From positions 62,001 through 126,000 of the IMG/VR virus record IMGVR_UViG_3300042544_003310: 64,000 nt of DNA, one strand, 5' to 3'. A model generated the notes under the pieces. The model searched no databases. It was not told the DNA's origin and saw nothing but the letters and a program-made list of their open reading frames with translations. Shown in pieces: positions 3,321-58,203 of the stretch; position 1 is the first letter of the stretch, and each line of letters opens with the position of its first letter. This DNA is from a virus. The position numbers and the translations under genes were made by a program.

Positions 3321-4052
3321 TTAGAAACCAAAATGCTCTTGTAAGATCTTGTCTATTTTGTGCAGTTGTTGAGTTACAGGCCCTAATAGGCAGTGAGTCC
3401 AGTGAGAAGGAACTATCGGAGGCAAGTAGCCGTCAATGTCCCGATTTAAATTTAACACGTTGATTACACTAGGACAATCCAACACTTTTGCGAAGTTATC
3501 AACAGGAACAACTGAGCCTGATGTTCCAATACACAGGAACAGGCTTTTGTCTGTAAGGCTGTCCAGTGTGTTGTAGAGATATTGGTATTTGGGTGCTGGT
3601 TCACCAAACAACACTACCGCAGGCTTGACATCAGTCAGGCTTTGGCAATTGGGACAACCTAGGGAGATGTTGTATCGAGTGTAGCCAATATTCCAAACAT
3701 GGCCACAGTTTTCGCATTGCATTTCATCCAGCTGTCCGTGAACATGCACAACAGGGATGCAACCAGCCTCCTCTAGCAAGAGGTCTGCATTTTGAGTTAT
3801 CACTGTTGCACTGTATTTTCTCTGCCATTCTGCCACCTGTTTGTGGGCGGCGTTTGGCTGAAACTTCAGAAGCATTTCCCGTAAGTCGCTGTGAAATTCA
3901 TTTACAATTTGAAAGTTTTGTCGCCAAGTGGCGTAATTACTGTAAACCAATGGATCATAACGGCTCCATAAACCTTCGCTATCTTCTCTAAATGTGGGGA
4001 TGCCGCTTTCAGCACTCAAACCAGCGCCGCTAAAAATCAATAATTGGGTCAT
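3321..4052 (-). CDS. Sir2-family NAD-dependent protein deacylase
   Basis: 243 residues from the ATG at 4052, which starts 'MTQLLIFSGAGLSAESGIPT'. An upstream TTG would add 14 unlikely residues. Sirtuins use NAD to remove acyl groups from lysine or to ADP-ribosylate. Motifs are complete: GAGLSAESGIPTFR (NAD loop), 'TQNADLLLEEAG', catalytic His in 'HVHGQLDE', a four-cysteine zinc site (CENC and CPNC), 'VVLFGEP' and 'CIGTSGSVVP'. It is the first gene of a three-gene minus-strand unit with the DUF5872-like and cupin genes. It lies divergent from the ADP-ribosyltransferase/acetyltransferase-rich block, suggesting linked NAD/acyl chemistry (inference). Confidence 0.9.
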   Translation of the reverse strand: MTQLLIFSGAGLSAESGIPTFREDSEGLWSRYDPLVYSNYATWRQNFQIVNEFHSDLREMLLKFQPNAAHKQVAEWQRKYSATVITQNADLLLEEAGCIPVVHVHGQLDEMQCENCGHVWNIGYTRYNISLGCPNCQSLTDVKPAVVLFGEPAPKYQYLYNTLDSLTDKSLFLCIGTSGSVVPVDNFAKVLDCPSVINVLNLNRDIDGYLPPIVPSHWTHCLLGPVTQQLHKIDKILQEHFGF

Positions 4053-4136
4053 AATTTTGATTATGCAACAAATTTCTGGAGGGTTGCAATCCAATTCTCA
4101 TGTTTACTGCCTTTGTATTGTGCTCACTGTCCAGAC

Positions 4137-17309: not shown

Positions 17310-17942
17310 GTGAGCCCTCTCTTTGGAACCTCTCTTGAAGAGAGGGCTCAACTCTTACGGTATAAGTCCTACCCTCCAACTTCACCGGCTTCTTGGAACT
17401 CACCAACAAGCACCCCCACTAGCACCTTAGTGTTCGTTACTGGCCATGTGTGTCTAGATTCAGTAGTGGACGACTTTCATGAAGTCGACAGCATAATTGA
17501 AGCTGAAGATTTGCTGTTTTCACAAGCAAACACTGTGGTGGAAAAATACGATGGATTGCCATTTGCACTCCGTAGACAGTCAACCTTATTAGGGCATCAA
17601 AATCGTCGAGGCTGTGGTAATCTCATTTTCACAACTCCGGAGATACGTGCCCAAATACCAGACAATCAACTGTATATTGATGACAGCAATTCCTGTAAAC
17701 AAGTGGGCTGTTGGTACTCAGCAGGCGTGTTGCGCAAATTTGACAAACAAGGCAGTCAAATATTTGTTAGTGATCGGGTACCCGAGCACACTGCCTATGT
17801 GGCATACAAAGGTTCAAGTGATTTAGACAGCGTTGCACTCCTGTTCAAAAAAGAAGATCAAATGCGACTGTGGTGTCCCTTAAGAGTTGACATACCCGTG
17901 AGCATCGCTCACTATATTACAAAGGTTGTGTTTGACAACTGA
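17310..17942 (+). CDS. Hypothetical protein, start codon buried in a hairpin
   Basis: 210 residues if the GTG at 17310 is used. There is no obvious ribosome site. The first 40 residues are Pro/Ser/Thr-rich, then a mixed alpha/beta region begins at 'LVFVTGHVCLDSVVDDF' with several Cys residues ('RRGCGNLIF', 'DSNSCKQVGCWYS'). A GTG at about residue 41 is an alternative start. A 13-bp stem covers the first start, see the hairpin entry. Unknown function. Confidence 0.5.
   Translation: MSPLFGTSLEERAQLLRYKSYPPTSPASWNSPTSTPTSTLVFVTGHVCLDSVVDDFHEVDSIIEAEDLLFSQANTVVEKYDGLPFALRRQSTLLGHQNRRGCGNLIFTTPEIRAQIPDNQLYIDDSNSCKQVGCWYSAGVLRKFDKQGSQIFVSDRVPEHTAYVAYKGSSDLDSVALLFKKEDQMRLWCPLRVDIPVSIAHYITKVVFDN
17311..17350 (+). 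repeat. 13-bp perfect hairpin over the start of the 17310 gene
   Basis: Arms TGAGCCCTCTCTT (17311-17323) and AAGAGAGGGCTCA (17338-17350), with a 14-base loop. No U-run follows, so it is not a standard terminator. It would hide the GTG at 17310 in the mRNA. Confidence 0.7.
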
Positions 17943-18929: not shown

Positions 18930-18955
18930 TGGGCACCCCACAGTGCCCATTTTTT
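18930..18955 (+). terminator. Factor-independent terminator after the clamp gene
   Basis: Stem TGGGCAC/GTGCCCA (7 bp), 6-base loop, then six T. It starts 11 bases after the clamp stop. Confidence 0.85.
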
Positions 18956-18966
18956 GGAGACTGCTT

Positions 18967-19497
18967 GTGCCAGTTGAACACGAACGCAAAATGCTCCTGC
19001 GACCTGAAAGCCCGCAGGAGCTACTACGACATTTGAAACGCCAACCCCTTGTGCAAACCTTTGAAATAACACAGGGTTATATCAACAAAAGTGCAAGAAT
19101 TCGACATGTGGTACCACACAATGGTGATGCAGAAACGCATTGGTTCACTTTCAAAACCAAGGTTACTGGAAATACAGTGGAGATCGAAACAGAAATTTCA
19201 ATCCACGACTATCACAAACTTTTCTTGATAGCTAAACCCGTAATCCACAAAACTCGCTGCAAGTTTCAAGAAGGGTTGAACTGTTGGGACGTGGATTTTT
19301 TCAAAAATCCCAAAAGCGGCGACATTTATTTGAGCATGGCAGAAGTGGAAATGCCAGAATTTGAGTTAGACCTTCCTGAGGTTCATCCTCTCTTACAGGA
19401 GAATTTTTGGCGCTGGATTGACGCAAACGACAAGAGGTTTCAGAACAAGAATCTTAGTAACTATAAAAAAGTTTTGATGAACCTGAAAGGTCTATAA
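18967..19497 (+). CDS. CYTH-domain protein (triphosphatase-like)
   Basis: 176 residues from the GTG at 18967, chosen because GGAG lies 8 bases upstream and the protein then starts 'MPVEHERKMLL', the CYTH signature E-x-E-x-K. CYTH enzymes form a beta-tunnel that hydrolyses inorganic or thiamine triphosphate or makes cAMP. Further family features: 'TQGYI', 'ARIRHV', 'HWFTFKTKVTGN' and an 'IETEISI' acidic strand. Triphosphatase activity is the commonest for short bacterial members; the substrate here is unknown. The gene ends with a one-base overlap (TAATG) onto the phosphoesterase gene, so it belongs to that unit. Confidence 0.75.
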   Translation: MPVEHERKMLLRPESPQELLRHLKRQPLVQTFEITQGYINKSARIRHVVPHNGDAETHWFTFKTKVTGNTVEIETEISIHDYHKLFLIAKPVIHKTRCKFQEGLNCWDVDFFKNPKSGDIYLSMAEVEMPEFELDLPEVHPLLQENFWRWIDANDKRFQNKNLSNYKKVLMNLKGL

Positions 19498-20285
19498 TGC
19501 CAAACAGCAAATATCGTAGCATCTTCATAAGCGATACGCATCTTGGTAGTCGTGCATGCCAAGCTGAGCTACTTGTGGAGTTTTTGAAACACAACTCCTG
19601 CCAAAATCTATACCTCGTTGGTGACATATTTGATTTGTGGAAATTGAAAAGCAGCAAATTCTGGCCACAAACACATAGCAATGTGGTTCGAAGAATTCTC
19701 ACTGCGGCCAAGAGAGGCACACAGGTGAGATATGTTTTAGGTAATCATGATGAGTACCTTCGAGCATGGATTCCAGACATACACACTTTTGGCAACATTG
19801 AGCTGGGCAATGCCTTTGAACATCACTCTGTTCATGGGCAGAGATTTTTGGTAACACACGGTGATTTGTTTGACGGTGTAATTCGATATCACAAATGGCT
19901 TAGCTTGATGGGCGACAAAGCACACAGTTTTTTACTGTGGTTGAACACACATTTGAATCATATGCGCCGGTTTTTTGGAAAAGATTATTGGAGTCTAAGT
20001 TCATACCTTAAAACAAACACGAAACAAGCTGTTGCATTTATCACCAAATACGAGCAACATGTAGTACAATATGCTCGGGACGAAGCATTTCATGGAGTAA
20101 TTTGTGGCCATATTCATTCTCCATCGTTGAAAACGTTTGAGGATGGGTTTGTGTATATGAATTGTGGTGATTTTTGTGAAACTGTGTCAGCTTTGGTTGA
20201 AAACTTTGATGGCTCAATAGAGCTACTGGTTTACGACACTGAAACAAAAAGTATGATGACGAAAAACACATGGAGCCTTGAATGA
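19497..20285 (+). CDS. Calcineurin-type phosphoesterase, LpxH/PlcP-like
   Basis: 262 residues with a full metallophosphoesterase set: D13-x-H15 ('ISDTHLGSR'), GDIFD (D43), GNHDE (83-86), 'VTHGD' (H121) and 'CGHIH' (H205, H207). The extended 'SDTHLGSRACQAELL' and 'GKDYWSLSSYLK' pattern is that of the LpxH-like family, which includes UDP-diacylglucosamine hydrolases and PlcP, the phospholipase C that bacteria use to degrade phospholipids under phosphate limitation. The next gene, a GT4 enzyme, overlaps by ATGA, the same gene pair as bacterial plcP-agt. A PlcP role is inferred from this pairing. An LpxH-like role in lipid A is the alternative. Confidence 0.85.
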   Translation: MPNSKYRSIFISDTHLGSRACQAELLVEFLKHNSCQNLYLVGDIFDLWKLKSSKFWPQTHSNVVRRILTAAKRGTQVRYVLGNHDEYLRAWIPDIHTFGNIELGNAFEHHSVHGQRFLVTHGDLFDGVIRYHKWLSLMGDKAHSFLLWLNTHLNHMRRFFGKDYWSLSSYLKTNTKQAVAFITKYEQHVVQYARDEAFHGVICGHIHSPSLKTFEDGFVYMNCGDFCETVSALVENFDGSIELLVYDTETKSMMTKNTWSLE

Positions 20286-21274
20286 GACTTGTGATTGTTG
20301 ATGACAACTGCCAAGACCAAGTGAATGGTGTTGTAACTACAATGAATGCAGTGAAAAAACAAATGTTTTCTCGAGGCATACAGAATCTCATTCACATCAC
20401 TCCTGATCAAATGATGTCTATGCCTGCATTGGTATATCCAGGTGCTCGCATACCATTGAATTTTTGGAATTTGAAAAAAAGAATAGAGGCGTATGAACCC
20501 ACACACTTGCACATTTGTACAGAAGGTGTGCTGGGCTTAACTGCTAGGCAATTTTTTCAAAACAAAAATTGGCGCTACACAACTAGCTTTCACACAAGAT
20601 GGGATCACTATCTCAAGGAAAAATTTGGTGTGCCGGCCCTCAAAACCATGAGGTATCTCAAATGGTTTCATCAAAATAGTGCAGCAACTTTGGTCAACAC
20701 TCCTACTATGCAAAGAGAGATGGTGTCGCTTGGCCTGTCTCAAGCCATCACATGGTCACGGGGAGTCAACACCCAACTGTTTCAATTTAATGACCGCAAG
20801 TGTGACACCAAGCCCACATTGTTGAGTGTTGGTCGAATCAGTGCTGAGAAAAATTTAGAGGTGTTTTGTAGCCTATCAGCAGAAAAATACAATCTAGTGT
20901 GTGTTGGTGATGGCCCTGATCTCAAGCGGTTACAGAACAAATACCCCTGGGTGACATTTACTGGGCAATTGAGCGGTAAGCAACTGGTACAGCAGTTCCA
21001 AAATGCTGACTGCTTTGTTTTCACCAGCAAAAGTGACACGTTTGGGTTGGTTATGATTGAAAGCATGAGTGTTGGTACTCCTGTTGCAGCATTTCCTGTG
21101 CAGGGTCCAATAGATGTTGTAGATGATGGGGTGACTGGTGTGCTAAATGAGGATATTCAGACAGCTATCTCGCAATGTTTGACATTGAGTCGAAAAACTG
21201 TTTTTGAAGGCAGCAAGCGATGGAGTTGGGAAAAAACAACTGATATCTTTGTTGATACGCTGGTACCCAAATGA
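20282..21274 (+). CDS. GT4-family glycosyltransferase, Agt/SqdX-like
   Basis: 330 residues, GT-B fold. The N-terminal 'VDDNCQDQVNGVVTTMNAV' (glycine loop for acceptor) and C-terminal 'LLSVGRISAEKNLEVF', 'VGDGPDLKRL' and 'SDTFGLVMIESMSVGTPV' (E-x7-E nucleotide-sugar site) match the group containing SqdX/SQD2, MgtA-type mannosyltransferases and Agt, the diacylglycerol glucosyltransferase. Tightly coupled (ATGA) to the phosphoesterase gene. If the pair is PlcP-Agt, diacylglycerol released from phospholipid would be glycosylated to replace it in the membrane. No membrane helix is predicted; such enzymes are peripheral. Confidence 0.85.
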   Translation: MRLVIVDDNCQDQVNGVVTTMNAVKKQMFSRGIQNLIHITPDQMMSMPALVYPGARIPLNFWNLKKRIEAYEPTHLHICTEGVLGLTARQFFQNKNWRYTTSFHTRWDHYLKEKFGVPALKTMRYLKWFHQNSAATLVNTPTMQREMVSLGLSQAITWSRGVNTQLFQFNDRKCDTKPTLLSVGRISAEKNLEVFCSLSAEKYNLVCVGDGPDLKRLQNKYPWVTFTGQLSGKQLVQQFQNADCFVFTSKSDTFGLVMIESMSVGTPVAAFPVQGPIDVVDDGVTGVLNEDIQTAISQCLTLSRKTVFEGSKRWSWEKTTDIFVDTLVPK

Positions 21275-21498
21275 AACATAAAAAAACCATTCCATCAAAT
21301 TTTCCCACTCTCAAATGTGTTGCATGCGGCACAAGCTGTGAGCCTTACAGGAAATACGTTTGTGACAATGATGGGGCAGTAGTCCATACTCAAAGTGACA
21401 TTTGGCCAGAATATTTCCGTGACATGGGGACCACCCGTATTGAGTTTTGTAGTGCACAATGTGGCCTCAAATATTGCACAGTAAATCAATTGGTGTAG
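21271..21498 (+). CDS. Small four-cysteine zinc-ribbon-like protein
   Basis: 75 residues, ATGA overlap with the glycosyltransferase gene. The cysteines fall as 'CVACGTSCEPYRKYVC' near the start and 'FCSAQCGLKYC' near the end, a likely zinc-binding arrangement (HNH-fragment, FCS-type or treble-clef ribbon). No catalytic residues seen. Unknown role. Confidence 0.65.
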   Translation: MKHKKTIPSNFPTLKCVACGTSCEPYRKYVCDNDGAVVHTQSDIWPEYFRDMGTTRIEFCSAQCGLKYCTVNQLV

Positions 21499-22096: not shown

Positions 22097-23185
22097 ATGC
22101 CCAATGTATTTGTATGGCCTATCGAGCCATTGGATAATCGCTACACCCAACAATGGTATCACGAGATTCCGTTGCGGCTCCAAGAAATAGTTGGAAATGC
22201 AGCAAAAGTAATCCAACTTGATGGGGTCCAAAACACTACAAGCACCACATCTGGTGCATTTTTGAATTTCAGCGACACCAACAGATGGAAAAGCACTCAA
22301 CTGGTTGAGTTTCTCAACAAACATGATGCTGGAGAAACAACTCCAAATGATGTGCATTTGTTCACTGACGCTTGGAATCCAGTGATTCTGCAAGTCAAGT
22401 ATATGAATGATCTCATGGGATATAATTGGAACATACAAGGTTACTGGCATGCTGGAGCATACGATCCCACTGATATCCTTGGATATAAAATGAGCAAACC
22501 GTGGCCCTGGCTAGCTGAGCAGGCACTGTTTCATGCCTGCGATGAGAATTGGTATGCAACAGATTTTCATAAAAAAATGTTTTTGAGCAATCTGGGCATC
22601 AGCAATGAATATCATCACAAAGCCAAAACTAGTGGGCAACCACACTCTGCTATTGTCAAACAAATGCAAGATATTATGCAGGACAGCCGAGAGAGGAAAC
22701 AGGGCGTTATTTGGCCACACCGTTACAATCCAGATAAGCAGCCTGAAATTGCTGAAGATCTCTCCAACAGCATGAAACAGCCTTGGTGTATTACACAAAA
22801 AATGAATCTCAACAAAAGCAGTTATTACGAAAAGCTGGCTGACTGCCAAGTAATTTTTTCCTGTAGCTTGCATGAAAACTTGGGCATCAGTGTAATGGAA
22901 GCTGTGCTGGCAGATGTGATCCCAGTGCTGCCCAATCGGTGCAGCTACAGCGAAATGTATCATCCTGATTTTCTCTATCCCAGCAACTGGACTCAAGATT
23001 GGGAAAGTTATCAAACACACAAACAACAATTGACTGAATTTATTCAGTACAGATTGAATCACCCCAAAAAGTTCAGTAGGCAGTTGGAAAAGCAAAAGAA
23101 AGTGCTCTTACAAAAATATCTTTCAGCTAGCGTAATGTTTGAAAACATCAGCAACACAGTTGCTAGATCAACCACAGTAAAGTAA
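22097..23185 (+). CDS. Glycosyltransferase (GT4-like, resembling the queuosine mannosyltransferase C-terminal domain)
   Basis: 362 residues, AAGGA ribosome site. The N-terminal 'VWPIEPLDNRYTQQWYHEIP' is typical of a phage glycosyltransferase family. The C-terminal half has 'GVIWPHRYNPDKQPE' near residue 233 and 'FSCSLHENLGISVMEAVLADVIPVLP', the nucleotide-sugar site. The 'WPHR...DK.PE' and 'HE..G....EA' spacing resembles the tRNA-queuosine mannosyltransferase (QTMAN/GTDC1) family, which is notable because the next gene is a DpdA-like deazaguanine transglycosylase. A role in sugar decoration of a modified base is an inference; surface glycan transfer is the alternative. Confidence 0.7.
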   Translation: MPNVFVWPIEPLDNRYTQQWYHEIPLRLQEIVGNAAKVIQLDGVQNTTSTTSGAFLNFSDTNRWKSTQLVEFLNKHDAGETTPNDVHLFTDAWNPVILQVKYMNDLMGYNWNIQGYWHAGAYDPTDILGYKMSKPWPWLAEQALFHACDENWYATDFHKKMFLSNLGISNEYHHKAKTSGQPHSAIVKQMQDIMQDSRERKQGVIWPHRYNPDKQPEIAEDLSNSMKQPWCITQKMNLNKSSYYEKLADCQVIFSCSLHENLGISVMEAVLADVIPVLPNRCSYSEMYHPDFLYPSNWTQDWESYQTHKQQLTEFIQYRLNHPKKFSRQLEKQKKVLLQKYLSASVMFENISNTVARSTTVK

Positions 23186-23194
23186 GATATATCT

Positions 23195-24853
23195 ATGACA
23201 AAACTTTCCAGCCCCAACCCACATTTGAAAAAAATTGATCAAAACATGCAACCTGTGGTGGGTAGAGACATGTGGACCACCAACAAGGACTATGCTATTT
23301 TTCTTCCTTCAATCTCAGCGATCTATGTGCGACTAGTAAGTCAGCCCAACGCTCGCACAGTCAAGGGGCTGCCGGGTGGATTGCAGGATTTGGACTTTCT
23401 GCAAACCAATACCAACTTATTTTATTATCCCACTGCACTCTACAGCAGCGGTCACAGTTATTGGGATCCTGCTCAAAGTGATATCCAAGAAGCTATGGTG
23501 CAAAAGCGAGACAAAAACGCCTCAGTAATTGTGGGCGACAGTGGTGGTTATCAGATTGCTACTGGCGTTCTCAAATGGCCTTGGCAGAAAAAAGAAAAGC
23601 AAACTGATCAAGACTGGATGAAGGACAAAGACGCCATTAGGATGAAAATCCTACGCTGGCTTGAACACACTTGTGACTACAGTATGGTATTAGATGTCCC
23701 CACAGGCAGCTTGTTGAAGTTTGGTAACGATCCCATCACAGGTGAGAACCTACATCCTGGGGTTAAGAACTTTAGAGACTGTCTTGAAAGCAGTATGGAG
23801 AATCACAACTTTTTCATCAAAAATCGTCGGGAAGGTAGTACACAATTTTTGAATGTGTTGCAGGGGCGCAATCAAGAAGAAGGTGACATTTGGTGGGACG
23901 TTGTGAAAGATCTTCCTTTTGAAACCTGGGCATTCAGTAATGTGCAAGCCAGCAACTTTGCTATAAATCTCCGTCGGATCATTATCATGCGAGATGGCAA
24001 GTATTTGGATAACAGAGATTGGATCCATTATCTAGGCAATGGCAAAATCAAGGCAGGCTGCGCTCTTACTACACTTCAACGAGTGTGGAGAAAGCACATC
24101 AACGAGCGTACAACTCTCAGTTACGATGCAGCAAGTCCTTTTGTGAACGTAGCAAAAGGCAACATCTACTACAGTTGGGAAGTAAGTCCGCAAAGCATTG
24201 CATATAAAAACAACTCGTTGCCAGACAAAAAAGAGCTTAAGGGCAGTCAAGAACTGTTTCAAGACTGGATCAATCGCCACAATCAAAAACATGCTGTTCG
24301 CGAAAGCAGCATTGGCAAGCGGATCACCATTGGTGATATCTGTGTCAAAGGTTATGAAGATCTCAATTTCAAAAAACAAGCTTTTTCACAAAAAGAGTTT
24401 GAAAGCTTGTTGTATCAACAAAGCTTGGAAGGCGTTCATGGCGAGAAGTTTCGCTACAGTGATGAATACAAACATTATCTTATGCATGAGCACACTGACC
24501 ACGGCAGCGGCATGTTTGATTGGGGCAAGAAAGAGTTTAAGGACCATGAAAAGTATCAGGTCAAATGGCCCAGCAGCATGGATGGTCTCAGCTATGTGCT
24601 GGGCATGAGCCACAATGTTGAGCTTCATATTGAAGCTATTCAACATGCATGTGCAATGCAAGACCTGCCAATGGAGGAGAGGAAACATCACATCAGCGAA
24701 GACTTGATTGAATTTGCTGGGGGACTTTGTGAAGAGATCTTCACTAGTGAAAAACCCATGCAACTGATTGAAAAACATTCTGCTATGTTAGCCAAAATCA
24801 CAGGAATGAACGCTGATAACAACATTGTCATGGATTTTGATGAATTTGAATAG
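23195..24853 (+). CDS. dpdA: DpdA-like DNA 7-deazaguanine transglycosylase (TGT family)
   Basis: 552 residues, longer than bacterial Tgt (about 375), as expected for phage DpdA. TGT-fold motifs: 'VIVGDSGGYQIATG' (115-120; catalytic Asp), 'SMVLDVPTG', 'LNVLQGRN' (loop contacting base), 'IKAGCAL' and 'SYDAASPF' (candidate nucleophile Asp). The C-terminal 200 residues are outside the TGT core, with many His residues. DpdA exchanges guanine for a 7-deazaguanine in phage DNA, protecting it against restriction. FolE, QueE and a QueD-like gene nearby would supply the base. tRNA-directed activity cannot be excluded from sequence alone. Confidence 0.8.
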   Translation: MTKLSSPNPHLKKIDQNMQPVVGRDMWTTNKDYAIFLPSISAIYVRLVSQPNARTVKGLPGGLQDLDFLQTNTNLFYYPTALYSSGHSYWDPAQSDIQEAMVQKRDKNASVIVGDSGGYQIATGVLKWPWQKKEKQTDQDWMKDKDAIRMKILRWLEHTCDYSMVLDVPTGSLLKFGNDPITGENLHPGVKNFRDCLESSMENHNFFIKNRREGSTQFLNVLQGRNQEEGDIWWDVVKDLPFETWAFSNVQASNFAINLRRIIIMRDGKYLDNRDWIHYLGNGKIKAGCALTTLQRVWRKHINERTTLSYDAASPFVNVAKGNIYYSWEVSPQSIAYKNNSLPDKKELKGSQELFQDWINRHNQKHAVRESSIGKRITIGDICVKGYEDLNFKKQAFSQKEFESLLYQQSLEGVHGEKFRYSDEYKHYLMHEHTDHGSGMFDWGKKEFKDHEKYQVKWPSSMDGLSYVLGMSHNVELHIEAIQHACAMQDLPMEERKHHISEDLIEFAGGLCEEIFTSEKPMQLIEKHSAMLAKITGMNADNNIVMDFDEFE

Positions 24854-24881: not shown

Positions 24882-24956
24882 GTCTGCTACATTACGGTAG
24901 CAAATTGGTGGAAACACCCGTTGTGCATAAACGACAGATGCTTTGAAAGGAAAGAT

Positions 24957-25637
24957 ATGAGCTATAATCGCACAAAATGTGATCCTGAACTGGGTCGCAA
25001 AGTACATGAATACCTAGTTTCCAAAGGGGTTGAAACCCCAACAGTGGAAAATTCCCTAAGCCGCACAGACAAAATTGATATTATTGAACGCAAGTTCAAG
25101 GACATCATGGAAACAATGGGCTTGAATCTATCAGATGATAGTTTGGCTGAAACGCCGACACGAGTGGCTCGCATGTTTATCCAGGAACTTTTTTGGGGTC
25201 TTGATTGGGAAGCTTTCCCCAAGTGCACCACTGTTGCCAACAAAATGGGCTATGATGAAATGGTGTGTGAACGAAATGTCACTGTCAAAAGTGCCTGCGA
25301 ACATCACTTCATTGTGATTGATGGTGTAGCAACTGTGGCTTATATTCCCAAAGAAAAGGTATTGGGCCTAAGCAAGATCAATCGAATTGTCGAATACTTT
25401 AGCCGCCGACCACAAATTCAAGAGCGTTTGACTGAGCAGATCTTTCATGCAATGGAATATATCCTGGAAACCGATAGCATTGCTGTCGTCATTCACGGCA
25501 AGCACTATTGCGTAAGTCATCGTGGCGTTGAAGATGATTGCAGCAGCACAGTTACCAGCAAGCTGGGTGGTGCGTTCAAACAGGATCCCAGTGCTCGTGC
25601 TGAATTTATGAAGATGGTTGACTTGACCTCTCTCTAA
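24957..25637 (+). CDS. folE: GTP cyclohydrolase I (FolE)
   Basis: 226 residues from the ATG at 24957, chosen for its AAGGAAAG ribosome site; 24921 is an alternative. FolE converts GTP to dihydroneopterin triphosphate, the first step of both folate and 7-deazaguanine synthesis. Motifs: 'LAETPTRVARMFIQEL', 'SACEHHFIVIDG' (zinc Cys and His), 'VLGLSKINRIVEYFSRRPQ', 'QERLTEQI' and 'GKHYCVSHRG' (second zinc Cys; the usual M is V). Length is normal. In this context, with QueE and DpdA, it probably boosts the precursor for modified DNA bases. Confidence 0.93.
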   Translation: MSYNRTKCDPELGRKVHEYLVSKGVETPTVENSLSRTDKIDIIERKFKDIMETMGLNLSDDSLAETPTRVARMFIQELFWGLDWEAFPKCTTVANKMGYDEMVCERNVTVKSACEHHFIVIDGVATVAYIPKEKVLGLSKINRIVEYFSRRPQIQERLTEQIFHAMEYILETDSIAVVIHGKHYCVSHRGVEDDCSSTVTSKLGGAFKQDPSARAEFMKMVDLTSL

Positions 25638-27038: not shown

Positions 27039-27830
27039 GTGCTGAAAAACTTCATAACCTATGCCACTGCTGGTGATATAATATACAGTCTTTGTGCAGT
27101 AAAAATCCTTGGGGGTGGCAACATTTACCTCAAATTGGGATACCTTGATGAGTTTTGCCGAAATGTGTTGGGTTGGTACAATCAGCCCTTCACAGGCAGA
27201 ATAAGTGAAAAAGATTTTCAAAACATTGAAAGCCTGTTGTTACACCAAAGTTATTTGCATGAAGTGCAAATCTATACCAACCAGCACATTGATTATGATT
27301 TAGCAGCTGAAAATTGGAAATTCATATTACCTTCTGGTTGGCAAGGTAATCAAACTCAAGCCTATGCCTTGGGACTGGGATGGGATATGACTGACGTTCA
27401 ATTGCAGCACCAGTTGTTGAGAGAGCCTTGGCTCACACAGGTTAGCCCAATCCTTATCCCCAATCGACCCATAGTAATCAATCGAACACCTAGACATAGA
27501 GACAACAGTGCTACACAAAAATGGATGGATTTTATCAAACAAGGTCTGTGCAAGCAGGCTGTGTTTGTGGGCACACCTAGAGAACATCAAGAGTGGCAAA
27601 CAGAGTTCAAGGAGACTATTGACTATTTTCCTACCCTAGATCTGTTGCATTTGGCACAGGTAATTCAAGGTTGTGAAATGTTCATTGGCAATCAAAGTGC
27701 GCCATTGGCTATAGCGATAGGTTTGGGCAAAAGCTATTGGTGCGAAGGCAATCGGGATACAAAAACACAAACTCCTCTAGGAGGCGGGGGCGATTGTTGG
27801 TTTGACCGCATAAATGGAAATTATTTTTGA
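27039..27830 (+). CDS. GT9-like (heptosyltransferase-type) glycosyltransferase
   Basis: About 263 residues from a GTG at 27039; TTG 27033 is possible. 'ATAGDIIYSLCAVKILGGG' is a degenerate version of the 'GDvl.t.p' loop of ADP-heptose transferases. 'PIVINRTPRHRDNS' with 'AVFVGTPREHQEW', then 'LDLLHLAQVIQGCEMFIGNQSAPLAIAIGLG' is the GT9 donor site ('D.....a...i....f.g..s...hlA.alg'). Shorter than the family (about 330), so it may be a minimal or partial enzyme. It probably acts on a surface or virion glycan. Confidence 0.65.
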   Translation: MLKNFITYATAGDIIYSLCAVKILGGGNIYLKLGYLDEFCRNVLGWYNQPFTGRISEKDFQNIESLLLHQSYLHEVQIYTNQHIDYDLAAENWKFILPSGWQGNQTQAYALGLGWDMTDVQLQHQLLREPWLTQVSPILIPNRPIVINRTPRHRDNSATQKWMDFIKQGLCKQAVFVGTPREHQEWQTEFKETIDYFPTLDLLHLAQVIQGCEMFIGNQSAPLAIAIGLGKSYWCEGNRDTKTQTPLGGGGDCWFDRINGNYF

Positions 27831-27841
27831 TCGGGCAACAC

Positions 27842-28534
27842 ATGTATGGACTGCTGGTTGTTTACAACAACAATTTCTCAGAACTTTCAAAAATAACCTT
27901 GGACAAAAACAAAAAGCTGTATGCTCAGAGACACAATTATCATCTGTTTGAAAAAACCACTTGGACCAGTCACTTTGACAGAATCCATGCGGTGTTGGAA
28001 CTTTTTGACACACACCCACATCTCAGTTGGCTTTGGTATACTGATACTGATGTTTTGATCACCAACTTCAAAACAACCATACAAGAAAAAACTAGTGACA
28101 CACATGATTTACTCATCTCAACTGATGTAAATGGCCTCAATACAGGCAGCATTTTATTTCGTAACTCAAGTCAGTGTCGGTCATTACTGCACGAGTTATT
28201 GAAAGTGGAAAAAGAAGCTTTGCAACATTGGGACTCAGAACAGTGGGCATTGAATCAGTTATTTGGGTTCCCCGGCACACACCACCCAAGTTACCCGCAA
28301 GGCGAGTCTTTGAAAATTCCACATCCTTGGGACAAAACGATTCAAGTTGTGCCTCAACGAATGTTAAACAGCTATGATTACAACCTATATCCTTATATAC
28401 CAAAACCTGCCTTGGACAAACTGTTGACAGATGGCTCATGGCAGCCAGGCGATTGGGCTGTGCATTTTCCTGGTGTAAGTGAATCAGAAAAAATAAATTT
28501 GTGCAACAGTTGGCAAAACAAAATACTGTTGTAA
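27842..28534 (+). CDS. GT34-like (GMA12/MNN10) glycosyltransferase
   Basis: 230 residues from the ATG at 27842. 'NKKLYAQRHNYHLFEKTTW' and 'LWYTDTDVLITNF' (DxD metal site) followed by 'NTGSILFRNS', 'WDSEQWALNQLFG' and a final 'GDWAVHFPGV' (catalytic-region His) are the order found in galactosyl/mannosyltransferases of the GMA12 family. No membrane anchor, unlike the eukaryotic members. Part of the glycan run 26.4-30.0 kb. Confidence 0.75.
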   Translation: MYGLLVVYNNNFSELSKITLDKNKKLYAQRHNYHLFEKTTWTSHFDRIHAVLELFDTHPHLSWLWYTDTDVLITNFKTTIQEKTSDTHDLLISTDVNGLNTGSILFRNSSQCRSLLHELLKVEKEALQHWDSEQWALNQLFGFPGTHHPSYPQGESLKIPHPWDKTIQVVPQRMLNSYDYNLYPYIPKPALDKLLTDGSWQPGDWAVHFPGVSESEKINLCNSWQNKILL

Positions 28535-28552: not shown

Positions 28553-29425
28553 TTGAAAGTATATGATTGTTTTACTTTTTTCAATGAGTTAGATCTACTT
28601 GAAATACGCCTTGAAGAGCTATGGGACGTTGTTGACTATTTTGTGTTAGCTGAATCAAATGTTACACATACTGGCATGTTCAAGCCCTTGTATTTTGATC
28701 TAAACAAACAACGCTTTGAAAAATATGCCCAGAAAATTCGTCACATTGTTGTTGATGACATGCCTGGCGGTGAAGACAACCTTTGGTTCAGAGAAAATCA
28801 TCAACGCAGATGTCTTGCTCGAGGACTAGGAGACAAAAGCCCTGATGATTTGATCATTGTAACTGATGCCGATGAAATTCCTCGAGCATCAGTAGTTTCT
28901 AGCATAAAACATGATAGTCAGCACACTCGTTGGATTTTGTTTGCTCCACAGTATTTGTATAAATTAAATTACATGAGAATCAAAACCACAAATGGGGTAG
29001 ATTGGCAAGCTGGTCCAAGTATTATTGTCTCAAAGTCTCAAGACTTTACTGACCCTCAAACAGAACGAACATTTACGTTTCCATGGGTTGGGTTGCCTGA
29101 TGGCACAGCCTTTGTTGCGCATGGAGGTTGGCATTGGAGCTCATTGGGAAACAATCAGCATTGTATTCAAAAGATCAACAGTTTTGTTCATACAAATGAG
29201 AATATACCTGAAATAGTCGAAAACTTTGACATTGACAGATTTATAGCCACAAAAGGTAGCCATCACACCCCAGGACAGTTTTTTGAAACAGTGGAATTGA
29301 ACAACTATTTTCCCAATTTTGTCTTATCCAATGCACAAAAATTCTCGCAACATGTTGCACCTGGGTTAGGTGTCAAAACAAGTGATATCTATCCTTTTGA
29401 TACCCAACACACTTACAGAACATAA
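28553..29425 (+). CDS. GT17-family glycosyltransferase (N-acetylglucosaminyltransferase-like)
   Basis: 290 residues from a TTG at 28553, with AAAGGAC upstream. The start 'MKVYDCFTFFNELDLLEIRL', then 'FVLAESNVTHTG', 'WFRENHQRRCLARGL' and 'DDLIIVTDADEIPR' (DxDE metal site) are diagnostic of GT17 enzymes. 'HGGWHWSSLG' is the conserved His/Trp segment. GT17 is scattered among bacteria, phages and giant viruses. It transfers GlcNAc or a similar sugar to a glycan; the acceptor here is unknown. Confidence 0.88.
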   Translation: MKVYDCFTFFNELDLLEIRLEELWDVVDYFVLAESNVTHTGMFKPLYFDLNKQRFEKYAQKIRHIVVDDMPGGEDNLWFRENHQRRCLARGLGDKSPDDLIIVTDADEIPRASVVSSIKHDSQHTRWILFAPQYLYKLNYMRIKTTNGVDWQAGPSIIVSKSQDFTDPQTERTFTFPWVGLPDGTAFVAHGGWHWSSLGNNQHCIQKINSFVHTNENIPEIVENFDIDRFIATKGSHHTPGQFFETVELNNYFPNFVLSNAQKFSQHVAPGLGVKTSDIYPFDTQHTYRT

Positions 29426-39144: not shown

Positions 39145-40842
39145 TTACTGTTTGCATACTAACATTCCCAGATCGGGAAGATACAGGTAGTGGATATCAC
39201 AGTTGAAGATTGTTATCAAGGCGTCTACCAGTGTTTCCACCAATGGCTGCCCAGCTAGATTGAAACTAGTGTTAAACAGCAACGGTGTTTCGGTTTGTTG
39301 CCGAAAAGCATCTAGCAGCTGATACAAATGCAAGTTTTGCTCGCTGGTGACAGTTTGTACTCTGCAGGTGCCATCCACATGTGTAACTGCAGGAATCAAC
39401 TCTCTTTGGCTTTCCTTCACATTTACAGCATACATCATGTAAGGGCTTTCATTGAGATTGCGCATGTCAAACCAGTCATTTGCATGTTCTGCCATCACAC
39501 TCGCAGCAAAAGGGCGGAACCATTCACGATTTTTAACTTGGTTAACAATATCCTTGCCGTTGGTTACTCGAGGATCAAAAAGAATGCTTCTGTTGCCTAG
39601 TGCACGAGGCCCACCTTCACTAGCGCCTTGAAACAAAGCCACAATATTGCCTTCTGCCAGCAGTAGTGCCACTTCAGCAGGTGATGTGTCTCTCATGCTG
39701 ATACCTTCAACAGAAGCAATAGTGGTTTCAATCTGATTATAGTCTGGCAACACACTCAAGTAGAGATGAGAGAGTGGTTGAGGTGTAGTATCTTGGCTCA
39801 GAACATAATAAGCATGCCGAGCTAAACCAATGGCTGTTCCACCATCATGTGCAATGGGATCAATGTAAAACTCAATATTAGGGAAACGTTCTAGATATTT
39901 GTAGTTGGCAACACAGTTGAGTGCATAACCACCACTGATTACAATGCGATTTTCTCCAGTAATGTCAATAGCACGCTCAATCAACTTCACCATCTGCTCT
40001 TCAGTTTCTTTCTGCACATGGTAGGCTAGATTCTTGTCTTGATCTCGCACTAATTCAAAGTTATTATGCCAGTCACTTGGTTGTGTGTATCTACGCAAGT
40101 AAGGAAATCTATTCTCGTCAATGTGTGCGCCGGTGGGATATCGAGGAATCAACAAGTTCTTGTTGCCTTTATTGTTGATGAAAAAGGCAGGAATGTTGCT
40201 GTCTTCTTGGCCATAAGGAGCTAGTCCCATGGTCTTCCCAGCTTCAATAGCCCCAAATCCTAAATAATCACTTACACTCTCGTATGCCTTAACAATAGTA
40301 ACATTATTATCAAATTCTTGGATACCGTTGTCGTAGTAGAGGCTGGTTTCCGCACCGTCACTGTATCTTTTGTAAACTGCGTTGAACTCATGTGGATAGC
40401 TGCAATGATAGATGCTTTCAGTTTCAAAACCCCCAGTAAGTGGTAGTCCTTCTCCCATGCTTTCTTGCACATAGCTTCCGGCCCCATCTACGACCAAGGC
40501 GCATGCTGTTTCAAAACCACTGCCATAGAAGGCATTAGCTGCATGACCCAAGTGATGTAGATGGCCCATTAGGGTAACTTGCACATTAGGACTGAATTTG
40601 CGAGCTAATGCAGCATAGGCATTCTCGTTAGTCCAAGGAAGAGTAACCCAATTAGTGGTGGTCCCACCAATGATCAAGTGGTCTACCAAATGATTAGTTA
40701 GTACCCATAGCATGGCTCTAAATGGATTACCGTCATACTTTAGGCGACTCCATCGTTCTTCCTCGCTATAAAACAGCAACTTACCGTCTTCAACAAGCGC
40801 CACACTGCTGTTGTGACCGGGATTGATGGCCATTATTTTCAT
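39145..40842 (-). CDS. Carbamoyltransferase (NodU/CmcH/TobZ family)
   Basis: 565 residues. The N-terminal Kae1-like half has 'NPGHNSSVALVEDGKLLFYS', 'GHLHHLGHAANAFYGSGF' (metal histidines) and 'ALVVDGAGS'. The YrdC-like C-terminal half has 'QGASEGGPRALGNRSILFDPR', the family signature. These enzymes carbamoylate sugars or antibiotics using carbamoyl phosphate and ATP. Surrounded by glycosyltransferases and next to the giant fibre in the same direction, it probably carbamoylates a sugar of a virion or surface glycan. Base carbamoylation is a weaker alternative. Its start overlaps the upstream gene by one base. Confidence 0.93.
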   Translation of the reverse strand: MKIMAINPGHNSSVALVEDGKLLFYSEEERWSRLKYDGNPFRAMLWVLTNHLVDHLIIGGTTTNWVTLPWTNENAYAALARKFSPNVQVTLMGHLHHLGHAANAFYGSGFETACALVVDGAGSYVQESMGEGLPLTGGFETESIYHCSYPHEFNAVYKRYSDGAETSLYYDNGIQEFDNNVTIVKAYESVSDYLGFGAIEAGKTMGLAPYGQEDSNIPAFFINNKGNKNLLIPRYPTGAHIDENRFPYLRRYTQPSDWHNNFELVRDQDKNLAYHVQKETEEQMVKLIERAIDITGENRIVISGGYALNCVANYKYLERFPNIEFYIDPIAHDGGTAIGLARHAYYVLSQDTTPQPLSHLYLSVLPDYNQIETTIASVEGISMRDTSPAEVALLLAEGNIVALFQGASEGGPRALGNRSILFDPRVTNGKDIVNQVKNREWFRPFAASVMAEHANDWFDMRNLNESPYMMYAVNVKESQRELIPAVTHVDGTCRVQTVTSEQNLHLYQLLDAFRQQTETPLLFNTSFNLAGQPLVETLVDALITIFNCDIHYLYLPDLGMLVCKQ

Positions 40843-50888: not shown

Positions 50889-52151
50889 ATGTCTATCGCC
50901 AATGACGATTCAGCTATGACCAAGATCCGCAAGGCTCGATTGAAGTTGATGTTCACCCATCCTTTTTTCGGAACATTGGTCATGAACCTTCCGGTTAAGG
51001 ACGCAACTGATGCTGGATGGTGCCCGACTGCTGCGGTTGATGGTCGATATATCTACTACAACCGAAATTTCATCAACGACCTATCAGTTGATGAAGTGCT
51101 GTTTGTTTTTGCGCACGAGTGCTACCATTGTATCTTTGATCACTTTGGTCGACGCAGCCATCGTGATCCGCAGTGGTTTAACATGGCCAATGATTACGTT
51201 ATAAACGGCCTACTTGTGCAAGACAAGATTGGCAAAATGCCAGAAAAAAAGGTAGAAGTTAAAGACGCTGATGGCAAATCCACCCAGCGTGTTGGCCTCT
51301 ACGACAGCAAGTATCTGGGCTGGACGTCAGAAAAAGTCTATGACGACCTTGTAAAGCGCAAGGTGAAGAAACAGCTTACTCTCGACGTGCACATTGAGAT
51401 GGGCAAAGATGCCCAAAACTCAGATGGGCAAAAAAGCAACCAAGGCATTCCTGTTGAGATTGATGAGGAAAGCCTCAAACAGCTTCGAGCTGAGCTCAAA
51501 GACAAGGTTCTGCAAGCTGCCAATGCCTCTGCTGGAAATCTTCCAGCCAGCATTGCACGTCTTGTGGACCATCTTGTGGAGCCCAAGATCAACTGGCGTG
51601 ACTTCATTCGCGAGACTATTCAAAGCCAACTCACAAGCGACTACACCTACCGGCGCCCCAATCGTCGCCATCATGGTGGTGATGTGGTGTTTGCCAGCCT
51701 GGAGCGTGAGGAAACTGTGGATGTGGAGGTCAGCATTGACCAAAGCGGCAGCATCTCTGCTGACATGGCACGCGACTTTCTAAGTGAAGTTTTGGGGATA
51801 ACTTCACAATATGATAATTTCCGGCTTGCAGTCAGCACCTTTGATACCCGGCTCTATAATCGCCAGGAGTTTACTCCAGAAAACATTGAAGAGCTGCTGG
51901 AGTATGAGCCCATGGGTGGCGGCGGAACCGACATTTCTGTGGTTATTAGATCACTCAAGGAAATGAATGTTGAGCCCAAGGTATTGATCATCTTCACAGA
52001 TCTTGAATCAAGTGAGTTTGGCGAGCCCAATTTCTGTCCCGTTGTTTGGCTTGTCAACAATCCTTGGAACAAGAATATCGTTCCGCCGTTTGGTACCTGG
52101 GTGCGGTTCACAAAAGAAGAAGGGGTGGCTGAAACAGGAGATGCAGGCTAG
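50889..52151 (+). CDS. VWA-domain/metallopeptidase-like protein (DUF2201 type), MoxR partner
   Basis: 420 residues. The N-terminal domain has a zinc-protease-like HECYH (76-80) in 'VLFVFAHECYHCIFDHFG' and 'DYVINGLLV', as in DUF2201 proteins. The C-terminal VWA-like domain starts near residue 275 with the MIDAS motif 'VSIDQSGSIS' (D284-S288) and continues 'GGGGTDISVVIRSL' and 'VLIIFTDLESS'. This two-domain form normally stands next to a MoxR ATPase; here the partner is at 36.0 kb. A terminator follows, shared with the convergent HNH gene. Role unknown: possibly remodelling of a metalloprotein or virion complex. Confidence 0.88.
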   Translation: MSIANDDSAMTKIRKARLKLMFTHPFFGTLVMNLPVKDATDAGWCPTAAVDGRYIYYNRNFINDLSVDEVLFVFAHECYHCIFDHFGRRSHRDPQWFNMANDYVINGLLVQDKIGKMPEKKVEVKDADGKSTQRVGLYDSKYLGWTSEKVYDDLVKRKVKKQLTLDVHIEMGKDAQNSDGQKSNQGIPVEIDEESLKQLRAELKDKVLQAANASAGNLPASIARLVDHLVEPKINWRDFIRETIQSQLTSDYTYRRPNRRHHGGDVVFASLEREETVDVEVSIDQSGSISADMARDFLSEVLGITSQYDNFRLAVSTFDTRLYNRQEFTPENIEELLEYEPMGGGGTDISVVIRSLKEMNVEPKVLIIFTDLESSEFGEPNFCPVVWLVNNPWNKNIVPPFGTWVRFTKEEGVAETGDAG

Positions 52152-57315: not shown

Positions 57316-58203
57316 ATGCTGCTGCACACATTAGTTGACCGAAAACTCATACACCCGCCCAAGTGGTTGCCCGACAACACTCAATTTCTGGGCTATGCTG
57401 GTAGTGCTGCCTATGGTGTCAGCAACGACACGAGTGACATGGACTGCTTTGGCTTCTGCATCCCGCCCCGTGAGATTGTGTTCCCCTTCACCGACGGCGG
57501 CAGGGTGTATGGCTTTGGCACACAGGAACAGCGGTTTCGAGTGTGGAGCGAGCATCACATTCAGCTGCCGGATCAACGGAAAGAGTTGGACTTTTCTATT
57601 TATAATATCGTTGATTTTATGCAACTGGCGATGGAAAATAATCCAAATGTTTTGGACGTTCTCTTTCTTCCCCGCCGCTGCATTCTCCACAGCACCAAAA
57701 TCGCAGAGCATGTGAGAGAGCATAGGAAAGAGTTCCTCCACAAAGGAGCTATGGGAAAACTTCGGGGATACGCATTTTCACAAATTTCAAAAATTCGCAA
57801 CAAAACCAACAGCAGCAATCCCAAAAGAGCTGCCACTATTGCTGAACACGGATGGGATCTGAAGTTTGGAGTGCATGTAGTGAGGCTCATGCTGCAATGC
57901 GAGCAGATCCTGGTAGAGCATGACCTTGACATTGAGCGCAACAGCGAGGTGCTCAAGAGCATTCGGCGAGGTGAGTGGACACTAGAGCAGCTGGACAGTT
58001 GGTTTGATGTCAAGGAAAAATCTCTAGAGACACTACATGCCAACAGCACGTTGCGAGATAAGCCAGATGAGAAGAGGATCAAACATCTACTTCTTGACTG
58101 TTTGTCAATGCACTATGGCCCTCTCACCACCGGTGTCAAGCGAGAAACTGGTGTTGATCAACTGGTAAATGAGCTGCAAACTGTGCTGGATAGATATCGA
58201 TAA
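57316..58203 (+). CDS. nrdC.11: Nucleotidyltransferase, T4 NrdC.11-like (RlaP family)
   Basis: 295 residues. The pol-beta-type signature 'GYAGSAAYGVSNDTSDMDCF' (G-S-x-A-Y-G...D-x-D) plus 'LDFSIYNIVDFMQLAMENNP' is that of the RlaP/YcgL-type nucleotidyltransferase family (Pfam PF10127), to which T4 NrdC.11 belongs. Substrate unknown. Well-formed over its whole length, including 'RGYAFSQISKIRNK' and a helical C-terminus. Normal T4-like early gene. Confidence 0.85.
   Translation: MLLHTLVDRKLIHPPKWLPDNTQFLGYAGSAAYGVSNDTSDMDCFGFCIPPREIVFPFTDGGRVYGFGTQEQRFRVWSEHHIQLPDQRKELDFSIYNIVDFMQLAMENNPNVLDVLFLPRRCILHSTKIAEHVREHRKEFLHKGAMGKLRGYAFSQISKIRNKTNSSNPKRAATIAEHGWDLKFGVHVVRLMLQCEQILVEHDLDIERNSEVLKSIRRGEWTLEQLDSWFDVKEKSLETLHANSTLRDKPDEKRIKHLLLDCLSMHYGPLTTGVKRETGVDQLVNELQTVLDRYR

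Follow-up and report, generated by a model that had tools for sequence, protein, structure and literature searches.

Phosphate-starved bacteria replace the phosphate head of membrane lipids by a sugar, using the products of the plcP and agt genes; the bacterial PlcP is Mn-dependent. Examples of plcP-agt operons are provided by PlcP and GTcp (PB7211_960) of Ca. Pelagibacter HTCC7211 and by PA3219-PA3218 of P. aeruginosa. Phages contain a great deal of phosphorus, and the pstS gene carried by cyanophages maintains the flow of phosphate into infected cells. The cyanophage pstS gene is known to be under host PhoBR control.

The window considered here is a stretch of 64,000 nucleotides that forms part of a 223,007-base virus record. 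It contains two genes from the same families and in the same order as in the bacterial operons, and we consider it probable that this phage carries a two-enzyme cassette, homologous to plcP-agt, for phospholipid-to-glycolipid remodelling that frees phosphorus. The phage proteins are 46-50% (PlcP) and 35-39% (Agt) identical to their proteobacterial relatives, and the catalytic residues are conserved. Pho-box control in many members is a further likeness to the bacterial operons. Unlike these operons, the cassette is carried by phages, and the copy in the window has no Pho box and overlaps a CYTH-like ORF in a replication cluster. The cassette resembles cyanophage pstS as a case of phage-borne phosphorus scavenging via host starvation regulation; however, PstS takes up external phosphate, whereas viral plcP-agt would mine host membrane phospholipid. 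No description of a phage plcP-agt cassette was found in the open-licence full-text literature, which does not cover subscription journals and preprints. Within this scope, the statement of an earlier sequence-only reading that no such phage system had been described holds, and the cassette seems to be new.

Four overlapping ORFs follow one another here, and the pair occupies the two central places; the features are as follows.

18943-19497, plus strand: CYTH-like ORF with an ExExK motif (PF01928, 20.9 bits, just below the cut-off of 23.2)
19497-20285, plus strand: plcP-type metallophosphoesterase gene, 262 aa, ATG start
20282-20285, plus strand: ATGA start-stop overlap coupling the plcP-type and agt-type genes, read from the sequence
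20282-21274, plus strand: Agt-type GT4 glycosyltransferase gene, 330 aa, ATG start
21271-21498, plus strand: 75-aa ORF with a weak zf-FCS (zinc-finger-like) match, below cut-off

A metallophosphoesterase and a GT4 glycosyltransferase sharing an ATGA had been proposed from the sequence alone. Both ORFs were recovered at these coordinates with domains above cut-off and the overlap was borne out, but the run is longer than the two genes then described. The CYTH-like ORF overlaps the plcP-type gene by one base (TAATG) and was seen only in close relatives of this phage; it is possibly a triphosphatase, and its place in the cassette is not established. At the other end, the 75-aa ORF shares an ATGA with the agt-type gene. 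Its role is unknown, and it evolves fast (53% identity to its relative, high dN). Upstream of the run lie a phage DNA polymerase gene and then an ORF of an uncharacterised phage family (18161-18919), and the cassette is placed in the replication cluster.

Near-identical copies of the pair occur in longer records of up to 328,603 bases. The longest of these, G014 (328.6 kb), encodes a large terminase, a gp23-type capsid protein, PstS and PhoH. The phage in the window is a large phage with a gp23-type capsid. In a collection of 50,697 isolate phage records, megablast found no isolate phage near the 9.4-kb surroundings of the pair. A translated search of the same collection yielded five records with the phosphoesterase, none of which was among the glycosyltransferase matches. 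A described isolate with a related gene is Pelagibacter phage Mosig EXVC030M, whose Mosig_00120 is a PlcP-type protein 48% identical to that in the window. Its gene divergently adjoins a phosphate ABC transporter (PstS-like) gene; however, it has no adjacent Agt, and it is annotated as UDP-2,3-diacylglucosamine hydrolase.

The product of the gene at 19497-20285 matches the Pfam families Metallophos_2 and Metallophos above cut-off. LpxH (UDP-2,3-diacylglucosamine diphosphatase) has the same metallophosphoesterase fold and metal ligands, the latter being complete in the phage protein (D13, H15, D43, N83, H121, H205, and H207), and its name is used in phage annotation and viral gene lists. LpxH alone swaps the catalytic His of such enzymes for Arg, which binds lipid X (PMC5016852). 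The phage protein retains the catalytic His (H84) in a GNHD motif and lacks the Arg of the LpxH-diagnostic GNRD. All 168 viral and all 80 bacterial PlcP-type proteins compared have His at this position, and all five LpxH proteins have Arg. The LpxH models score far below their cut-offs (NF003743, 47 bits versus 134; TIGR01854, 37 versus 190). Among bacterial proteins, the closest are those of SAR11 and other proteobacteria, with up to 50% identity, whereas LpxH proteins from the genomes that hold the compared plcP loci are only about 25-27% identical. When whole genomes were searched, the best match was the plcP locus in 12 of 12 bacterial genomes (E from 1e-72 to 1e-81), whereas the proteins above the LpxH cut-off in these genomes matched with E of 8e-5 to 9e-4 or were unmatched.

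In the phylogenetic tree of phosphoesterases, LpxH stands apart (SH-aLRT 100) and the viral proteins belong to the PlcP part, where most of them make up two exclusively viral groups; locus L012 and a cyanophage protein are placed separately. This is a quick tree with LpxH as the sole outgroup and with some long branches flagged. The structure model (mean pLDDT 88) has an LpxH-type fold, and LpxH is the nearest solved structure because no PlcP structure is present among the structure matches. The assignment to the PlcP type rather than LpxH, also made in the sequence-only reading, is well supported by these comparisons, and phospholipase C activity is predicted. A DNA-acting phosphoesterase similar to SbcD, suggested by weak PHROG hits, was ruled out, since the similarity to PlcP (46-50% identity) extends over almost the full length of the protein.

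The product of the gene at 20282-21274 matches Glycos_transf_1, Glyco_trans_1_4, and Glyco_transf_4 above cut-off. Its best match adjoins plcP in 11 of 12 genomes, and in the twelfth the only glycosyltransferase match is a distant GT4. In a quick tree, the sampled viral GT4s form one clade (support 98) adjoining the Agt proteins of SAR11 and of one gammaproteobacterium (93), and the Agt family including the viral clade is split from the remaining GT4 paralogs in these genomes (99). The glycosyltransferase groups with plcP-adjacent Agt, as had been proposed, and away from those paralogs. The sequence-only reading had named, as a ground for refutation, a firm grouping of the phosphoesterase with true LpxH and of the glycosyltransferase with LPS or capsule enzymes; it withstood this check.

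GTcp, the Agt of HTCC7211, produces glucosyl-, galactosyl-, and glucuronosyl-diacylglycerol, and 14 of its residues were picked out by modelling and mutation (PMC8231724). Thirteen of them are identical in the window protein, the remaining one being Thr162, replaced by Ser159. The His104-Asp256 dyad is present as H104 and D252, and the UDP-sugar motifs as GRISAEKN and FTSKSDTFG. The GTcp residues docked to diacylglycerol, Thr162, Arg163, and Trp320, correspond to Ser159, R160, and W316. Unlike GTcp and the window protein, which have Asp, about half of the viral homologs carry Glu in place of Asp256 (65 of 124 rows, near-copies included; e.g., L111, L124, and L133). In GTcp, the D256E substitution abolishes more than 90% of activity. 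The donor or acceptor may have changed in this part of the family, but the replacement remains unexplained. The structure model has a GT-B GT4 fold (mean pLDDT 94). Both structure models are confident, and on them the fold may be regarded as fixed, with the substrate not settled. Identification of the protein as Agt-type is well supported at the sequence level; a UDP-sugar:diacylglycerol glycosyltransferase is predicted.

The pair is not restricted to one phage. A viral scan with the phosphoesterase yielded at least 568 relatives. A scan with the glycosyltransferase yielded 80 loci, and PlcP is encoded directly upstream in 79 of them; the single exception is a contig that starts just before the GT4 gene. 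Because the adjacency recurs in 79 of the 80 contigs, it is not a matter of chance. Among 70 distinct loci found with the phosphoesterase, 28 have a GT4 and 26 have a GT2 instead. The GT2, with some similarity to GT21, follows plcP in 26 of 123 viral loci (e.g., L073:4975-5685, L051, and L089), and plcP with GT2 is a second, parallel cassette type. A similar situation is observed in bacteria, where plcP also occurs with other glycosyltransferases (PMC4796936). The pair is accompanied by terminase and gp23 in at least seven records (G014, G015, G018, G019, G020, G022, and G033). Fatty-acid desaturase genes are found near 14 of the 123 viral plcP loci (e.g., L169:6058-6768), a hint that phages may engineer lipids more widely. 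An apparent "small protein" that recurs behind plcP (59 loci) was discarded as an out-of-frame ORF inside the GT4 gene.

Comparison with a phage that is 89-93% identical in both cassette proteins gave dN/dS of about 0.03 for the phosphoesterase (dS saturated) and 0.08 for the glycosyltransferase, with 0.06 for DNA polymerase. Both cassette genes of the window's phage are under strong purifying selection.

In many relatives, the cassette is associated with phosphorus acquisition. The pstS gene, when present, is a frequent neighbor of viral plcP: PstS is encoded in seven of 30 records, and in six of these seven the gene is no more than about 1 kb away from plcP or the accompanying glycosyltransferase gene, which is unlikely to occur by chance on contigs of 62-250 kb. 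The seventh record is that of the window's own phage, where pstS (G014:250130) is far from the cassette.

Pho boxes were sought with the consensus YTGTMAY-N4-YTGTMAY, at least 13 of 14 matches being required on the same strand. They precede 25 of 123 viral plcP genes, always 39-60 bp from the start. Such sites are 59 times denser there than elsewhere in the same loci, and perfect sites 145 times. As this wider consensus was chosen after inspection of the hits, a second test used a matrix derived exclusively from regions upstream of bacterial plcP. With this matrix, sites before viral plcP are five to 12 times enriched, and at the loosest threshold 32 of 34 sites are 35-62 bp upstream. The textbook Escherichia coli Pho box alone gives a weak enrichment (6.8% of viral regions versus 2.5% in shuffles). 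In the searches with the textbook box and with the wider consensus, the bacterial plcP loci served as the positive control. No convincing Pho box was found at the window's copy back to the DNA polymerase gene, the best site having 11 of 14 matches. Thus, of the PhoB boxes that the sequence-only reading suggested looking for, none precedes this copy, but they are found at a fixed distance before many of its relatives from other phages. Not every Pho box predicted in a phage genome is functional (PMC10976474). Because the window's cassette belongs to a run of overlapping genes in a replication cluster and lacks a Pho box, it may be expressed independently of phosphate.

The proposed mechanism can be described as follows. 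PlcP, a metal-dependent phosphoesterase, would act on the phosphatidylglycerol or phosphatidylethanolamine of the host and split off a phospho-alcohol, leaving diacylglycerol. Glucose or glucuronate would then be transferred from a UDP-sugar to the diacylglycerol by Agt, which is a retaining GT-B enzyme. The resulting glycolipid would keep the membrane area, and the freed phosphorus would go to phage DNA. The observations behind this scheme are that the proteins are homologous and their residues conserved, that the genes are coupled, under purifying selection, and recurrent in true phages, and that the cassette of related phages is associated with pstS and Pho boxes. It is inferred that the phage enzymes are active, that they act during infection, and that the benefit is a supply of phosphorus; no activity, lipid, or expression data are available for any phage member. 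For the family as a whole, the purpose with the best support is to release phosphorus for phage DNA; the evidence is weaker for the window's copy, since it is coupled to genes of the replication cluster and not to a Pho box.

The main rival keeps the same enzymes and differs in the benefit: the glycolipid itself matters, e.g., by blocking superinfection, changing the envelope charge, or preserving membrane integrity while a long infection lasts, and the freed phosphate is a by-product. The position of the window's copy among replication genes and without a Pho box agrees with such a benefit, as do the desaturase genes near other viral copies. An effect of lipid remodelling on phage receptors and binding has also been suggested (PMC9804370). 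However, in many relatives phosphorus is indicated by the adjacent pstS gene and by the constant distance of the Pho boxes, and we regard a membrane-centered benefit as rather unlikely, while not dismissing it.

Two other explanations change the nature of the genes. One is that the pair encodes LpxH with an LPS or capsule glycosyltransferase, altering lipid A or surface sugars. It draws on related phage genes being publicly annotated as UDP-2,3-diacylglucosamine hydrolase, on LpxH being the nearest solved structure, and on the presence of other glycosyltransferases near the pair in this phage. Given the catalytic His, the scores far below the cut-offs, the separate clade, and plcP as the best match in every bacterial genome searched, this combination was ruled out on residues, scores, and trees, and we retain scarcely any belief in it. 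The other is that the genes are neutral cargo, acquired from hosts and without function, in line with the cellular homologs in many proteobacteria. Strong purifying selection largely refutes this explanation; moreover, the catalytic residues are kept in nearly all viral copies, the viral Agt proteins form one old virus-only clade, and the pairing is conserved. Cargo without function thus appears extremely improbable, and release of phosphorus by lipid remodelling remains the preferred explanation.

In a broader perspective, the balance of evidence tilts slightly towards many large environmental phages running their own, often host-PhoB-switched, program of phospholipid-to-glycolipid conversion. 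It would consist of plcP with agt or GT2, to which pstS and a desaturase may be added, and would treat the membrane as a store of phosphorus for phage DNA, constituting a general and so far undescribed virocell strategy. If this is true, mining of the host membrane is an internal source of phosphorus for phages, infection can alter membrane lipid composition, and infected cells could be a source of glycolipids in phosphate-poor waters. There may also be a consequence for annotation. The lpxH gene is mentioned in viral gene lists (PMC10653327, PMC9611531), and some "lpxH" entries in lists of viral auxiliary genes may be PlcP and not lipid A enzymes; this is only an inference.

Several other features of the window can be mentioned. 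No tRNA genes were found within it. Near the replication genes, a 210-aa ORF (17310-17942) has a weak match to the gp23 capsid family, below cut-off. Three further glycosyltransferase-like ORFs are located up to about 8 kb downstream of the pair (22097-23185, 27827-28534, and 28553-29425), with weak GT4-like, GT34-like, and GT17-like matches. A 552-aa ORF without a family match (23195-24853) is followed by a strong match to GTP cyclohydrolase I (FolE, 24921-25637), and these two could be part of a modified-base pathway. Elsewhere, the window encodes a Sir2-like protein (3321-4094, minus strand), a carbamoyltransferase (39145-40842, minus strand), a DUF2201 metallopeptidase/VWA protein (50889-52151, plus strand), and an RlaP-like RNA-repair protein (57316-58203, plus strand).
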